DNA from: Saprospiraceae bacterium
GTDB taxonomy: Bacteria > Bacteroidota > Bacteroidia > Chitinophagales > Saprospiraceae
Assembly: GCA_019187225.1 (NCBI GenBank)
Contig: JABAQQ010000012.1
Span: forward strand, 1 to 64,000
Direction: 5' to 3'
DNA length: 64,000 nucleotides
Part shown: piece after piece, positions 4,671 through 55,713 of the stretch
Layout of the letters: every line of letters starts with the position of its first letter
Numbering within the stretch: the first letter of the stretch is position 1
Position numbers and translations under genes: made by a program
The notes under the pieces: generated by a model
The model's input: only the letters and a program-made list of their open reading frames with translations
What the model was told of the DNA's origin: nothing
Databases searched by the model: none

Positions 4671-5096
4671 ATCGTTCTGCCCCGCGTCGGGGTTTTCCTT
4701 TTTATGGTTTTTTCTTACTTGCCGTGTCATTCCGACGCAGGAGGAATCTGTTTAAACAATTGAATGTCAGTTATATCGGTAACGCGGCGTTTACGCCGCC
4801 CGGTTCAAGGGCGTTTACGCCCGAATTTTATTCGAATACGGCCATAAATGGCCTTCAACAGGGCGGCGTAAATGCCGCGCTACCAATTAACGGGACACCC
4901 TCATTTCTGCGTTTCTCCAAATCTCAACATCAAAAATTCAAACAGCCTCCAGGCATTACAAAAAAAATTTCCGGGAAAGGATTTTGGAGGCTCGCATTTT
5001 GGGAAGGGGGCATTATGATAGTATAAGATTCCTGAATCGCTCTGGGATCATTCAGTACCAAACCTCACTTCATAAATTTCAAAAAAGTTTCTTACC
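4671..5096. other. Gene-poor spacer with palindromic element
   Basis: A 426-bp spacer between the CHAT gene and a lipoprotein gene. It holds the 108-bp palindromic element described separately (4778-4885). A short open frame crosses the element but has no credible start or relatives and is not called as a gene. I see no clear TAnnTTTG promoter box. Confidence 0.6.
4778..4885 (+). repeat. 108-bp palindromic element, intergenic copy
   Basis: A unit made of nested palindromes (GGCGTTTACGCC, GGGCGTTTACGCCC, GGCCATAAATGGCC), with the two ends also related to each other in inverted orientation. A copy of exactly the same length, about 70 % identical by hand alignment, lies inside the GSCFA coding sequence at 43204-43311. 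One frame is open through this copy and translates to a peptide matching the GSCFA insertion (AAFTPPGSRAF here, AAVTPPGSGAF there). Confidence 0.85.
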
Positions 5097-5684: not shown

Positions 5685-5789
5685 TTTTGACCCGGCCATA
5701 ACAAAGTTCACAATACTTTTTTAAAACAGGCGGAATCCGAAAAGCCTCGAAAAAGAGTAGGAAAAAAACCAAAAAAAAATTTTTAAGTC

Positions 5790-12810: not shown

Positions 12811-12848
12811 CAATTTCTTGCGCAGGGAAATTGGCTGTTGCCTTCCGA

Positions 12849-12962
12849 CTTATCTGTCCCGAAAGCATTCGGGACGGAATTGGCACCTTAATCACATTTG
12901 CGCTAAACGCAATCAGGTTGCCAAGGCTTCAACGGGCCGGTCCCTCTGCCTTTCTGGATAAG
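12849..12962 (-). ncRNA. SAM-I (S-box) riboswitch aptamer
   Basis: On the minus strand the SAM-I core is clear: P1 strands CTTATC and GATAAG at the two ends, the conserved AGAGGGACCGGCCC segment, the GAAGCC..GGCAACC segment, the GGTGCCAATTCC segment, and a P4-type stem (GTCCCGAATGC, CTTTCGGGAC). It is followed by a terminator (12782-12810) and the cystathionine gamma-synthase-type gene. A likely promoter box on the same strand is CACCTTTG (complement of 13006-13013), one base off TAnnTTTG. SAM binding should reduce expression of the methionine genes downstream. Confidence 0.95.
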
Positions 12963-13130
12963 TCTGCCCCGGCTCGCACCGGGACTGTTTTTAAATGAAC
13001 TGGCGCAAAGGTGGGCAAATGCGGGGGAGAGAAAAAAGAGGGGGTGGAAATTTTAGGGAAAATTTAACAAAAAGGCAACGCGTGGCGTCATGTTTTATGA
13101 GCCATCGGCGGCGTCAAAAAATCAAAACTA

Positions 13131-25800: not shown

Positions 25801-27231
25801 ATGACAAATCAAAACGCATCGCAACAAAAAGCCATCGTCGTCGGCGCCGGTCTTGTCGGCTCCTTATGGGCCGTTTTTCTCGCCCGGCGCGGTTACCAGG
25901 TCGAGGTGTACGAACGCCGCCCCGATATGCGCGCTGCCGGGTACTCCGGCGGGCGCTCCATCAATCTCGCTATGAGCGAGCGCGGCTGGAAAGCCGTCGA
26001 ACAGGCCGGCATCCGCGAAAAAATTGAAAAAGTCGCCATTCCCATGCCGGGCCGGATGATGCATTCGGTAGCGGGCGAGATGACGTTCCAACCTTACGGC
26101 AAGGAAGGCCAGGCCATCTATTCTGTGTCGCGCGGTGGACTGAACTTAGAATTGCTGAACATCGCCGCTTCCTTCCCAAATGTTCAGTTCTTTTTCGACC
26201 ACCGCTGCGTCGAGGTAGACCTGGAAAATCCCGTCATTACTTTCGAGGATATGAAAACCAATGCGCTGAAAACAGTGGAAGCGCCGCTGATCTTCGCTGC
26301 CGACGGCGCTTTCAGCGCGGTGCGCTATGCACTGCAACGCACCGATCGCTTCAACTACACGCAGTTCTACCTCGAACACGGCTACAAGGAGCTGACCATT
26401 CCGCCGAATGCCGACGGCAGTCACCGGATGCAGCAAAATGCCCTGCACATCTGGCCACGCGGCAATTTTATGCTGATCGCCCTGCCCAACGCCGACGGCA
26501 GTTTTACCTGCACCCTTTTTCTGCCCTTCGAGGGAGAAGTTGCTTTCGAAAAAATAAAAACCGACGCCGACGTGTCTGCTTTTTTCCAACAATATTTTCC
26601 CGACGCCGTGCCGCTGATGCCGACGCTGATAAAAGATTTTTGGCAAAATCCGACTTCCTCGCTCGTGACGGTCAAATGCGCGCCCTGGCAATGGCAAAGC
26701 CGCATCCTGCTCATCGGCGATGCCGCGCATGCCATTGTGCCGTTCTACGGGCAAGGCATGAACGCGGGTTTCGAGGACTGCACCATCCTCGCCGCGATGC
26801 ACGACGAAATGGGCGGCGATTGGCAGCACATCCTCCCGGAATTCGCCCGGCGCCGTAAGGCCGACGGCGACGCCATCGCCGAACTCGCACAGCGCAATTT
26901 CATCGAAATGAGGGACTTAGTGGCCGATCCGAAATTTTTGCTGCGCAAAAAGATCGCCGCCCGTTTGCACGAGCAACACCCCGATTTTCTGCCGGTGTAT
27001 TCGATGGTCACCTTCAGCAATACGCCCTACCACATCGCCCTGCGCGAAGACGACGCTCAGAACGATCTGTTCCGGCAAATTCTGAGTTTGGACAATGTTG
27101 AAAACGAGTGGGACGGAGCAGGCGTGGAACAGGTGTTCAAACGGTGGACGGTAGACGGTGGACGGTGGACGGTGGACGGTGGACGGTGGACGGTAGACGG
27201 TGGACAGTGGACGGTAGACGGTAGACGGTAG
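25801..27231 (+). CDS. kmo: Kynurenine 3-monooxygenase with repeat-encoded C-terminal tail
   Basis: 476 residues. A flavoprotein that hydroxylates kynurenine in tryptophan breakdown toward NAD precursors. FAD-binding motif VVGAGLVGSLWAV (about 13-25), GGRSINLAMSERGW, and the second flavin motif LLIGDAAHAIVPFYGQGMNA. Family sequence ends near residue 447. The remaining 29 residues are tandem WTVDGGR units encoded by a GGTGGACGGTAGAC minisatellite, so the tail is translated repeat DNA. Other kynurenine genes are not in the window. Confidence 0.93.
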   Translation: MTNQNASQQKAIVVGAGLVGSLWAVFLARRGYQVEVYERRPDMRAAGYSGGRSINLAMSERGWKAVEQAGIREKIEKVAIPMPGRMMHSVAGEMTFQPYGKEGQAIYSVSRGGLNLELLNIAASFPNVQFFFDHRCVEVDLENPVITFEDMKTNALKTVEAPLIFAADGAFSAVRYALQRTDRFNYTQFYLEHGYKELTIPPNADGSHRMQQNALHIWPRGNFMLIALPNADGSFTCTLFLPFEGEVAFEKIKTDADVSAFFQQYFPDAVPLMPTLIKDFWQNPTSSLVTVKCAPWQWQSRILLIGDAAHAIVPFYGQGMNAGFEDCTILAAMHDEMGGDWQHILPEFARRRKADGDAIAELAQRNFIEMRDLVADPKFLLRKKIAARLHEQHPDFLPVYSMVTFSNTPYHIALREDDAQNDLFRQILSLDNVENEWDGAGVEQVFKRWTVDGGRWTVDGGRWTVDGGQWTVDGRR

Positions 27232-27275
27232 ACGGTAGACGGCTTACCCGCCGAAGCCTCGGCGAAGGCGGGTGG
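27140..27275. repeat. GACGGTGGACGG minisatellite and CCCGCCGAAGCC palindrome
   Basis: Tandem 7-bp units (GGTGGAC/GGTAGAC) at 27140-27241, followed by an inverted module CCCGCCGAAGCC / GGCGAAGGCGGG at 27246-27272. The first part is translated as the end of kmo. A short complementary stretch lies on the other side of moxR (28427-28451). The same unit forms the hairpin at 55562-55713. Confidence 0.88.
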
Positions 27276-33865: not shown

Positions 33866-33964
33866 GAAGGTAAATGCCGAAGAAGGAAATAAAGGAAATC
33901 CATCGGGGGGCGTCGGAGACACGATGATGCTTTGCGCCAGCCGGGACATGTGGTCTTTTATAAC

Positions 33965-34092
33965 ATTTCCCGCAGATACAATATTTCCCGCAGATACAAT
34001 ATTTCCCGCAGATACAATATTTCCCGCAGATACAATATTTCCCGCAGATTTTCGCAGATTTTGATCTCAATCTGCGAAAATCTGCGGGAAAT
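33965..34092. repeat. 18-bp tandem repeat closed by a 24-bp hairpin
   Basis: Four full 18-bp units (ATTTCCCGCAGATACAAT) start at 33965, 33983, 34001 and 34019. A fifth, changed unit at 34037 begins a hairpin with 24-bp perfect arms (34037-34060, 34069-34092). It lies between the convergent rhomboid and citrate synthase genes, where a two-way terminator could be useful. Confidence 0.92.
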
Positions 34093-42624: not shown

Positions 42625-43725
42625 TCAAATTGCCCGATTGACAAACCGTTGGAAATACACTTCCTCCTCGCCAAAATCCAACGCGGTCCATTCCTTTTTC
42701 AAGTTTTCAATCGCCTCCAGCTGTGCCCGCGCAAATGCCCGGTGCTCCTCCGAAGCGGGGTTGAATGGCCGGTGTCGCGCCGCCGCCACAATTTTTCCGA
42801 TCCGTTCGTTCAGTCTTTTTGTGTCTTCCGAAAAAAAAGTGCCTGCGAAAAAATTCCAGATGTATTGCACTGCCACTTCGGAAGGATGCACCATGTCCGC
42901 CGCATAAAAGCGGTAATCGCGCAGATCGTCGAGCAGGAGTTCGTAGGCGGGGAAATAATGCGCAAAGTCGAGCCGGCGGCATATCTCGTCGCAGGCCAAC
43001 ACAAGGGTCGCTTTACTGCGCTGGCTGGCCACTGCGCCGCTGCGCAGGTGCCGAACGGGGCTGACGGTCAAAACCACCTGTAAATCAGCATTTTTTGATT
43101 TTATTTTTTGTAAAATGCCGATCGTACTCTCCGCGATTTCGGTCACCGACAGGCGGCGTTCCTGAAACAAAGCGGCCGACATTTTATGGTTGTTGGCGAC
43201 CACAGGTAGCGCGGCTTTCAGGCCGCCCTGGCCAAGGTCATTTATGGCCGACCCTACCCGTGTTGCGGGCCTGAACGCCCCCGAACCGGGCGGCGTAACT
43301 GCAGCGCTACCCATGTCGCGCAGCATAAACACATCTGCCGTACCGAAAGTGAGCAACAGGCGGTTCGCTTTTTTCAGAAACGCCACAGCATCAGCATATG
43401 CCGCGTTGATACCTGCCAGGGTTTCTTCTTTTCCGGGTTTTGAAAAACGCCCGTGGTGCTCCCAACTGTGCCACAGTCCTGCGTTTTCAAAAATTTCCTG
43501 TTCTGTAAAAAATTGATTTTCGTTAAAAAGCCTTTCCAAACCGGAGACAATAGATGCGGGGTTATAAACAATCCCAGACGGATTGGTCAGTGTGGGGAAT
43601 TTATAACCAGCCAATTGGTTGCCGATGTGTTCGGTAAAACACGAACCGATCAGCATCAAATGTTCCGAATGACTGATACCGAATGGTGCCGGTTGCACTT
43701 TTAACGCGGTACGGAAGGTCTCCAT
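42625..43725 (-). CDS. GSCFA family protein with in-frame palindromic element
   Basis: About 366 residues from ATG 43725 (METFRTALKVQPAPFG); the frame opens upstream only with a TTG. The name-giving motif appears as LIGSCFTEHIGN. Other conserved stretches: WHSWEHHGRFS, LLTFGTADVFML, NNHKMSAALFQERRLS, LTVSPVRHLRSGAVASQRSKA and FPAYELLLDDLRDYRFYAADMVHPS. The GTADVF and NNHKM parts are normally almost adjacent; here about 36 extra residues lie between them, encoded by the palindromic element (43204-43311). The family is SGNH-hydrolase-like, function unknown. Confidence 0.9.
   Translation of the reverse strand: METFRTALKVQPAPFGISHSEHLMLIGSCFTEHIGNQLAGYKFPTLTNPSGIVYNPASIVSGLERLFNENQFFTEQEIFENAGLWHSWEHHGRFSKPGKEETLAGINAAYADAVAFLKKANRLLLTFGTADVFMLRDMGSAAVTPPGSGAFRPATRVGSAINDLGQGGLKAALPVVANNHKMSAALFQERRLSVTEIAESTIGILQKIKSKNADLQVVLTVSPVRHLRSGAVASQRSKATLVLACDEICRRLDFAHYFPAYELLLDDLRDYRFYAADMVHPSEVAVQYIWNFFAGTFFSEDTKRLNERIGKIVAAARHRPFNPASEEHRAFARAQLEAIENLKKEWTALDFGEEEVYFQRFVNRAI
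43204..43311 (-). repeat. 108-bp palindromic element, copy within the GSCFA gene
   Basis: Same length as the intergenic copy at 4778-4885 and about 70 % identical, with the ends best conserved and the middle ten bases unrelated. It is oriented so that the GSCFA frame is the one open in the intergenic copy. 108 bp is 36 codons, so the downstream frame is kept. Confidence 0.85.
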
Positions 43726-43759
43726 ATTTGACAAATAAATAAAATCCCGGCAAACTTGC

Positions 43760-54829: not shown

Positions 54830-55561
54830 ATGAAAATCAACGTTTTATTCTTATTTTTCGTGCTTTTTCTACCCCTCGCAGCCCTTGCCCAGAGCAACGA
54901 AGGCATTATCCGGTTCGAGGAAAAAGTCAACGTACACCGCTCGCTGCCACCCGATGCGGAGGATATGAAAGCCATGATCCCCGAATTCAGGATACATCAA
55001 AGCGAGCTGCTTTTCAACCCCACCGAAAGCCTCTATCGCAATGTGGAAGAGGAGGAAGAAGACGATACGGATGCAGGGGGCGGTGGCATCGTGATGCGCA
55101 TACAGCGCCCTGAAGCGACGTTCTACCGCAATTTCGTTGCGCACCGGAAGGTGGATTTCCGCGAGTTTTTTGGCAAAAATTATCTCATCGAGGATACTCT
55201 CGCGGGTGGCAACTGGAAAATGACCGGACAGACCAAACAAGTGCTCGGCTACAACTGCATCAGTGCCACCACCACCGACACAGTGCGCAAACGCGAGATA
55301 ACCGCCTGGTTCACTGATGCGCTCTCCCTCTCCTCAGGCCCCTCGCAATTCGGTCAGCTGCCGGGAATGATCCTCGAAGTAGACATCAACAACGGAGAAA
55401 TCGTGATCGCAGCAAAAAAAGTAGAGTTTAAAAAACTCAAAAAAGGTGATCTCGAAGCACCCAAAAAAGGCGAAAAGATCACCGAGGCCGAATTCCAGAA
55501 ACTTATGGCCGAACGTTTGCGGGAAAACGGCGGCAGACCAATGCGTATCATACGAAATTGA
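54830..55561 (+). CDS. GLPGLI family protein
   Basis: 243 residues with a signal peptide (ends ALAQ). The name motif appears as GQLPGMILEVD. A Met/Lys/Glu-rich acidic loop lies near residues 80-95. GLPGLI proteins are exported proteins of Bacteroidota with unknown function. The stop codon runs directly into the GACGGTGG minisatellite. The divergent kinase may control it (inference). Confidence 0.9.
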   Translation: MKINVLFLFFVLFLPLAALAQSNEGIIRFEEKVNVHRSLPPDAEDMKAMIPEFRIHQSELLFNPTESLYRNVEEEEEDDTDAGGGGIVMRIQRPEATFYRNFVAHRKVDFREFFGKNYLIEDTLAGGNWKMTGQTKQVLGYNCISATTTDTVRKREITAWFTDALSLSSGPSQFGQLPGMILEVDINNGEIVIAAKKVEFKKLKKGDLEAPKKGEKITEAEFQKLMAERLRENGGRPMRIIRN

Positions 55562-55713
55562 CGGTGGACGGTGGACGGTGGACGGTAGACGGTGGACGGT
55601 GGACGGTGGACGGTGGACGGTGCATGGTCTCCCGGCATTTTGGTTCGACAAGATGACGACCTTAAAAATTGCCAGAGTACCCCGTCTACCGTCCACCGTC
55701 TACCGTCCACCGT
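55562..55713. repeat. GGTGGACGGTGGAC minisatellite hairpin between convergent genes
   Basis: Eight or nine 7-bp units (GGTGGAC/GGTAGAC) at 55562-55623, a 58-bp spacer, then the complementary units at 55682-55713. The left arm touches the GLPGLI stop and the right arm touches the stop of the convergent lipoprotein gene. Confidence 0.92.

Follow-up and report, generated by a model that had tools for sequence, protein, structure and literature searches.

The window analysed in this work, i.e. a stretch of 64,000 nucleotides from a Saprospiraceae bacterium (GenBank assembly GCA_019187225.1, contig JABAQQ010000012.1, positions 1 to 64,000), contains a GSCFA-family gene bearing a palindromic element in frame and an intergenic copy of the same element (Table 1). 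The genome to which the window belongs (7.18 Mb, 73 contigs) is referred to below as the own genome, or G000. The data are genome sequences, mostly MAGs. When the window was searched against Rfam at gathering thresholds, only the SAM riboswitch and the DUF805b RNA were found, and nothing at the element.

Table 1. Features of the window (window positions)
Feature	Position	Strand	Remark
GSCFA-family gene bearing the element	42625..43734	-	369 codons, TTG start
Palindromic REP-dimer-like element in the GSCFA gene	43205..43311	-	107 bp, in frame
5' terminal hairpin arm with GGTAG foot	43288..43311	-	element positions 1-24
3' terminal hairpin arm ending in CTACC (inverted foot)	43205..43228	-	element positions 84-107
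Intergenic copy of the element	4778..4884	+	same frame also open
AATTAACGGGACACCCTC	4885..4902	+	apparently what is left of one end of a second unit with TIRs, which carries near-identical copies in the own genome
DUF805b cis-regulatory RNA	5727..5763	+	Rfam RF02914, 50.1 bits
SAM riboswitch	12847..12964	-	Rfam RF00162, 89.1 bits
Array of 7-bp units (GACGGTG/GACGGTA)	27112..27251		
18-bp tandem repeat	33959..34049		TACAATATTTCCCGCAGA type
Array of 7-bp units (GACGGTG/GACGGTA)	55532..55650		

The element and its host gene

The preliminary description had taken two stretches of 108 bases for copies of one repeat, and the comparison bears this out: aligned without gaps, they are identical at 78 of 108 positions, against a mean of about 27.5 (standard deviation 4.6) over every placement in the window; the highest unrelated placement reaches 50. 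Used as a blastn query, the gene copy finds the intergenic copy at an E-value of 6.2e-14 with 75 % identity. The repeat is thus real, its extent having been set slightly too wide since the element proper measures 107 bp. Consensus ends are GGTAGC...GCTACC, and the palindromes are nested on both strands; long hairpins are predicted on both strands of both window copies. The frame in which the element is read in the gene (GGT-AGC) is also open in the intergenic copy, as had been stated. In the gene, the element and the next base encode GSAAVTPPGSGAFRPATRVGSAINDLGQGGLKAALP, and a predicted peptide spanning the insert would include stretches such as GAFRPATR and VGSAINDLGQGGLK.

The Pfam GSCFA match is split at the element into two parts (43306-43659 and 42847-43203, profile 118/119). 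No match split at that site was found in the other genomes searched, among which the match of G015 ends at a contig edge and G017 has two separate full matches. The insert is absent from all aligned relatives, i.e. 30 loci from 30 of the 32 other genomes with a match (G015, G027 and the second G017 gene having been left out of the alignment) and 19 of 19 named records; none carries the 36 residues. The preliminary description had named an old insertion of the family and a lack of further genomic copies as outcomes that would overturn it; what was found is relatives without the insert and a multicopy repeat. It had also set the distance between the two flanking motifs at 36 residues. The element does separate these motifs in frame, and the net gain is about 34 residues since most relatives have about two residues at the site. 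At this very position, the loop of two near relatives, G007 and G009, is of another kind and exceeds the others by 10 residues.

The structure of the window GSCFA protein, predicted by AlphaFold2 together with 15 relatives, has a mean pLDDT of 77.4. Values below 50 are found at residues 142-176, i.e. the insert, which comes after a strand at 134-138, and likewise at 1-6, 89-96 and 273-275. Such values are as expected of a disordered loop, and denote low confidence rather than proof of disorder. Codon bias is positive both before and after the insert; like the stop-free frame, it is at most supportive of a possible translation of the insert.

Architecture and distribution of the repeat family

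Seventy-eight full copies were examined, 16 from the own genome and 62 from sister genomes, copies having been fetched from 12 of the 14 element-bearing sisters. Their 5' feet read GGTA (62/78) or GGTG (12/78), four starts being different, and their 3' feet TACC (63/78) or CACC (14/78), with one different end. Apart from two copies of 140 and 145 bp, lengths range from 99 to 117 bp. The GTAG/GTGG tetranucleotide at the foot of the palindrome is that of GTAG REPs and REPINs, and the two inverted REPs, which have their tags outside and can form one long hairpin, correspond to a head-head dimer.

Covariation was assessed on an alignment of 44 of the 78 full copies (A3), in which four hairpins with TTTA/TTCA-type loops are visible. 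Standard pairs occupy 95.2 % of the 835 cells of these local hairpins, and in 18 of 19 pairs some copy has both partners changed; with slid partners pairing falls to 27-46 %, and none of 500 shuffles reaches the observed level. For the stem formed between the two arms, 95.0 % of 1188 cells are paired and 18 of 27 pairs are doubly changed (slid controls, 33-44 %). Part of the excess over the slid versions is built in, since both structures were drawn from these same copies. Stem letters vary between genomes and the architecture is constant; even within one genome, the outer stems of both arms may differ around a nearly identical interior (L154 versus L172). Double-foot mini-palindromes of 28 bp also occur in the own genome. 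At L119 (G000:C21, 2501-2829), two of them, separated by about 300 bp, have inner flanks that match in inverted orientation (GATACATTAGTC...), an arrangement resembling a 329-bp composite.

The whole own genome was searched by blastn with each window copy and with a covariance model, R1, built from 13 copies (alignment A1). Full or partial copies, 28-bp minis included, were located at about 23 places, and the repeat accordingly has further copies beyond the two first described. This number is below the more than 100 copies per genome usual for REPs (PMC2817692); according to the available text of PMC3733652, families of 20-100 units or fewer exist, so that more than 100 is usual and not defining. 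The genes neighbouring the copies are unrelated to each other, and 8 of the 23 places lie within 11 bp of a neighbouring stop codon, or supply one, as judged by ORF prediction. At L108 (G000:C10:42877), an 834-codon gene whose product has a secretion-tail domain ends at a TAG provided by the GGTAG foot.

At an E-value of at most 0.001, R1 matches 15 of the 42 congeneric genomes, own included, with 4-45 strand-matches per genome in the 14 sisters; the nearest relatives in the SprA-like protein tree, G007 and G009, have no match at E 0.001. R1 also matches an unrelated palindrome, L228 (34.9 bits, E 1.8e-5), and genomes with weak matches only, such as G014 (best E 1.1e-4), are therefore doubtful. 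A second covariance model, R2, built from 44 copies, was run on 149 genomes of the order; at E 1e-4 it matched, besides the own genome, only G170, which lies outside the genus. The two sequences fetched from G170 lack GGTAG feet, and this genome was thus not counted. The E-values of both models are rough. From these matches, the element appears to be patchily spread and its family nearly confined to one genus of the order searched.

Two arrangements were seen among sister copies. At L180 (G043:C119), copies are in tandem, one every 321 bp. Several sister copies are centred in a further short palindrome, i.e. TTGAGTT/AACTCAA, ATGGAGGT/ACCTCCAT or TTCAGGC/GCCTGAA (at L180 and at L345 and L346, the flanks of the copies beside the RAYT-A gene described below), which perhaps reflects a target preference or a longer element.

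Insertions in conserved genes and an inverted copy

In-frame insertions in conserved genes, a trait of Rickettsia palindromic elements (RPEs), were found in GSCFA, PabB, BirA and SprA-like genes. The in-gene coverage scan was run without a coding-score filter, which misses the G056 copy. Insertions checked against orthologs comprise 6 of the 78 copies (2 own, 4 sister) and a G052 copy outside the 78. All are 2 mod 3 long (107, 107, 116, and 110 bp in each of four orthologs), as survival alone would give, and all use the GGT-AGC frame. Among the 78, at least one strand offers an open frame in 27 of the 34 copies whose length is 2 mod 3, in 0 of the 26 with 1 mod 3 and in 9 of the 18 with 0 mod 3, these being observed counts of frames that the architecture alone may open.

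The PabB copy of the own genome (C10:203572) lies between YLDSN and GWECL of a chorismate-binding enzyme that scores 317.5 bits with the NCBIfam pabB model (cut-off, 328.4). The 29 aligned PabB relatives have a loop of variable length at this site and no such insert (36 of 40 genomes with a match). In G050, the BirA copy directly precedes the IKWPND motif and is absent from the other 29 aligned loci; the same BirA loop holds in G052 (L299) a different, tandem-repeat insert made of short GTCATTGGGTCATTC-like repeats. The insertion sites in GSCFA (two genomes), PabB and BirA are thus loops of varying length in relatives. Three coverage cases of the N-terminal kind (histidine kinase, L110; class II tRNA synthetase, L173; FGGY kinase, L177) were excluded from the insertions since the true starts are probably downstream of the element. 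L169 had no Pfam match.

The SprA-like protein has about 1236 residues and is a weak NCBIfam match. Among the 39 genomes of the genus with a match, it runs through an insert in four (G010, G041, G052 and G056) and lies outside the insert only in the others. In a tree of the 30 aligned loci, the four form a clade (support, 98/96). The G052 element is reversed: its core agrees with those of the other three at 43-45 of 56 positions when flipped and at 27-30 of 56 when not, and the other three agree with each other at 37-40 core positions unflipped. Each of the three orthologs, compared with 82 other copies, matches the flipped G052 copy best. A single insertion, inherited and turned once in the G052 line, would account for this pattern; reinsertion of a similar copy at the same site in G052 is less likely. 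All four copies are open in both orientations. More generally, both strands are open in 6 of 6 gene-borne copies among the 78; of the remaining 2-mod-3 copies that have an open frame, 8 of 21 share this trait (p 0.010, or 0.039 with the three orthologs counted once).

This inherited, inverted insert, open both ways, is the most unusual part of the material. Together with the both-strand openness of gene-borne copies, it suggests a speculative and rather unlikely extension, in which RAYT-linked palindromes would be reversible coding modules: they would enter in frame, be readable either way and turn over in situ when their inverted arms recombine, so that the protein loop would have two alternative sequences and act as a slow, or even phase-variation-like, switch. 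The flipping mechanism is, in this proposal, conjectural.

A candidate transposase and a probable origin of the insertion

RAYT-A is the Y1 gene of G010 that is bounded by two full copies of the element differing at 1 of 124 bases; its orthologs in G046 and G043 are also bounded on both sides by full copies. The arrangement termed REPtron, i.e. a RAYT flanked by copies, is thus found in the lineage in three genomes. Near G044:C472 and the decayed RAYT-A gene of G056 there are also arms or copies resembling the element, and a 26-bp double-foot repeat is present beside the RAYT-A fragment of G047, at a contig edge; no copy was found in the flank examined of G044:C589. The nearest NCBIfam model to RAYT-A is that of the REP-associated tyrosine transposase, at 59.7 and 58.6 bits, under the cut-off of 80. 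Its motifs are NHVH/NHCH/NHGH, WQ and Y[IL]KQN(P/A), with NHGH in G046 at the place of the expected HUH motif. RAYT-A orthologs of at least 52 % identity occur in 6 of 42 genomes, all within the 15 bearing the element (Fisher p 0.00095), a cut that was chosen after viewing the list and retains the fragmentary G047 and G056 orthologs. The association is weaker for relatives at E 1e-5 with no identity cut (11 of 15 element-bearing versus 10 of 27 other genomes).

At E 1e-5, nothing in the own genome matches RAYT-A. Its three Y1_Tnp genes were considered as movers and discarded, no element copy adjoining them; another RAYT of this genome (C24) scores 95.6 bits against the NCBIfam cut-off of 80, and no copy was found beside it. 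Among the first sister Y1 loci retrieved (L204-L233), R1 matches were obtained at two: L208 scores 18.7 bits, and L228 was rejected, having no GGTAG feet and a different palindrome. The element-bounded transposase surfaced only among weaker Y1 matches. Another Y1 gene, L342 (G046:C29), has on each side a 24-bp double-foot palindrome whose sequence is not that of the element, the two being identical (2102-2125 and 2897-2920), and may represent a second REPtron-like type in the genus.

We consider it probable (about 0.82) that the insert is a non-autonomous element of REP/REPIN type belonging to this uncultured genus and associated with RAYT-A, a bare copy of which lies in a loop of the GSCFA protein. 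Two inverted GTAG-footed REPs, with a structured spacer between them, make up a palindrome, mostly 99-117 bp long, which RAYT-A, as a REP-type Y1/HUH transposase, would mobilise as single-stranded DNA; going by the association in sister species, RAYT-A probably moves the element. Since the own genome lacks RAYT-A, its copies may be old, may have moved in trans or may have spread otherwise. For none of the copies was an exact empty site or a target duplication delimited. A bare copy would have landed in the GSCFA loop in the lineage of the window's genome, small changes of the target keeping the frame, and the protein would thereby have gained its loop of about 34 residues. In our proposal, the insertion owes its survival to a length of 2 mod 3 and to the absence of stops from its GGT-AGC frame.

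Alternatively, a DDE transposase could move a TIR-bearing MITE whose interior is the palindrome. In the own genome, the five copies that most resemble the intergenic one, itself included (91-98 % identity), do show ends of a small TIR-bearing unit, ...GCGTTCATC on the left in three and AATTA...ACACCCTC on the right in four, and the window copy at 4778 retains the right TIR end. Both GAGG(G/C)TGTC-type ends are complete in one copy only, on C61, and with the patterns used no TIR end was detected at the GSCFA and PabB copies or at L107, L108, L111, L112, L113 and L115. The unit, with ends GAGG(G/C)TGTC(T/C)CATAA, encloses the copy at L106 (C61, 2484-2634) and interrupts the one at L122 (G000:C16, 2532-2689), where it measures about 158 bp and has no palindrome; unit and palindrome are therefore separable. 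As it is the palindrome that bounds RAYT-A in sister genomes, we regard the MITE explanation as improbable, and the TIR unit may rather be a second route of spread in the own genome, on which the palindrome seems to hitch-hike. Far less credible is an old insertion of the GSCFA family that resembles the repeat by chance or low complexity: the longer loop of G007 and G009 shares an 8-mer (AGCGCGGC) with the element end, but the 36 residues occur in no aligned relative and the 107 bases are about 75 % identical to a multicopy repeat. A relic test of the G009 loop against the element gives a borderline shuffle p of 0.04-0.05.

Two further explanations accept the repeat and differ on its consequences; both appear unlikely, to about the same degree. 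The insert might inactivate its hosts, the GSCFA (and PabB) genes of the MAG being pseudogenes that stay open by chance. An open frame is weak evidence against this, since the frame of the element is often open by architecture alone, and the window GSCFA protein departs from 2 of the 55 columns that are invariant in the other 15 aligned rows. It agrees at the remaining 53, however, with positive codon bias on either flank; inserts sit at variable-length loops in GSCFA, PabB and BirA, and the SprA-like insertion is still open in four species. These observations are compatible with a protein that may have retained its function. Otherwise the element might be no selfish repeat but one kept by selection, either as a functional RNA or DNA hairpin (terminator, mRNA stabiliser or protein-binding site) or because it makes a useful linker in proteins. 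The strong covariation of the stems and the frequent proximity to stop codons would suit a selected hairpin, but stem upkeep is expected of a transposase substrate too, and the patchy distribution, which leaves out the nearest relatives, the change of stem letters under a constant architecture and the unrelatedness of neighbouring genes all argue against it.

The RAYT-associated REP dimer favoured here has much in common with known systems. In the available text of Di Nocera et al. 2013 (PMC3733652), GTAG REPs have a GTAG tag at the hairpin foot and may form head-head dimers of two inverted copies with the tags outside; their spacers may hold stem-loops, they are intergenic, often next to stop codons, with the tag giving TAG, some copies lie in frame within genes, and they are associated with RAYTs. 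All of these traits are found here. Compared with that account, our element has two covarying TTTA-type hairpins in the spacer of most aligned copies, is nearly restricted to one genus of the order searched at low copy number, and has an insertion traced through a clade, inversion included. Double-foot REPs are described by Quentin et al. 2018 (PMC6006769), in whose accessible part subclass 2.4, abundant in Bacteroidetes and Cyanobacteria, has 5' GT[AG]G and 3' C[TC]AC feet like ours, and REPs occur in frame within tnpA_REP genes. The claim of the preliminary description that no such element was described for the phylum must accordingly be withdrawn. Unlike those REPs as described, ours usually measures 99-117 bp with four hairpins and is inserted in GSCFA, PabB, BirA and SprA-like genes; the subclass motifs are given as NH[IFV]H, WQ and YIxNNP, of which RAYT-A has WQ but Y[IL]KQN(P/A) instead of YIxNNP. 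Pseudomonas REPINs, in what is available of Bertels and Rainey 2011 (PMC3116915), are likewise inverted REP doublets with a spacer (spacings of 71 and 110 bp) that are predicted to form one hairpin and are studied as a mobile unit; extragenic space was considered there, whereas some copies here are in frame in genes.

The resemblance to RPEs first pointed out is correct as regards a dispersed palindrome in frame in a gene, but the name GTAG-type REP dimer or REPIN, accompanied in sister species by a REP-type transposase, suits the element better. RPE palindromes of about 150 bp also lie in frame in unrelated genes with open frames (accessible parts of PMC10969869 and PMC3733652). As far as the latter goes, RPE-4 and RPE-6 are CGTC repeats, Bacteroidetes are among the hosts of CGTC repeats, and these apparently have no dedicated transposase; the tag here is GTAG, and the likeness drawn here is one of description. 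RPEs thus serve as an analogy and not as demonstrated kin. A literature search covering titles and abstract openings, with subscription papers largely outside its scope, returned no account of such elements in Saprospiraceae and no in-place inversion of a REP dimer.

The in-frame carriage of REP-type elements is hereby extended, in Bacteroidota, to conserved genes beyond the transposase itself, and a candidate transposase, RAYT-A, is named. The natural series of empty, inserted, inherited and inverted sites lets one ask how a mobile hairpin joins a protein, and the inversion without closure of the frame makes it testable whether palindromes stay open both ways because they flip.
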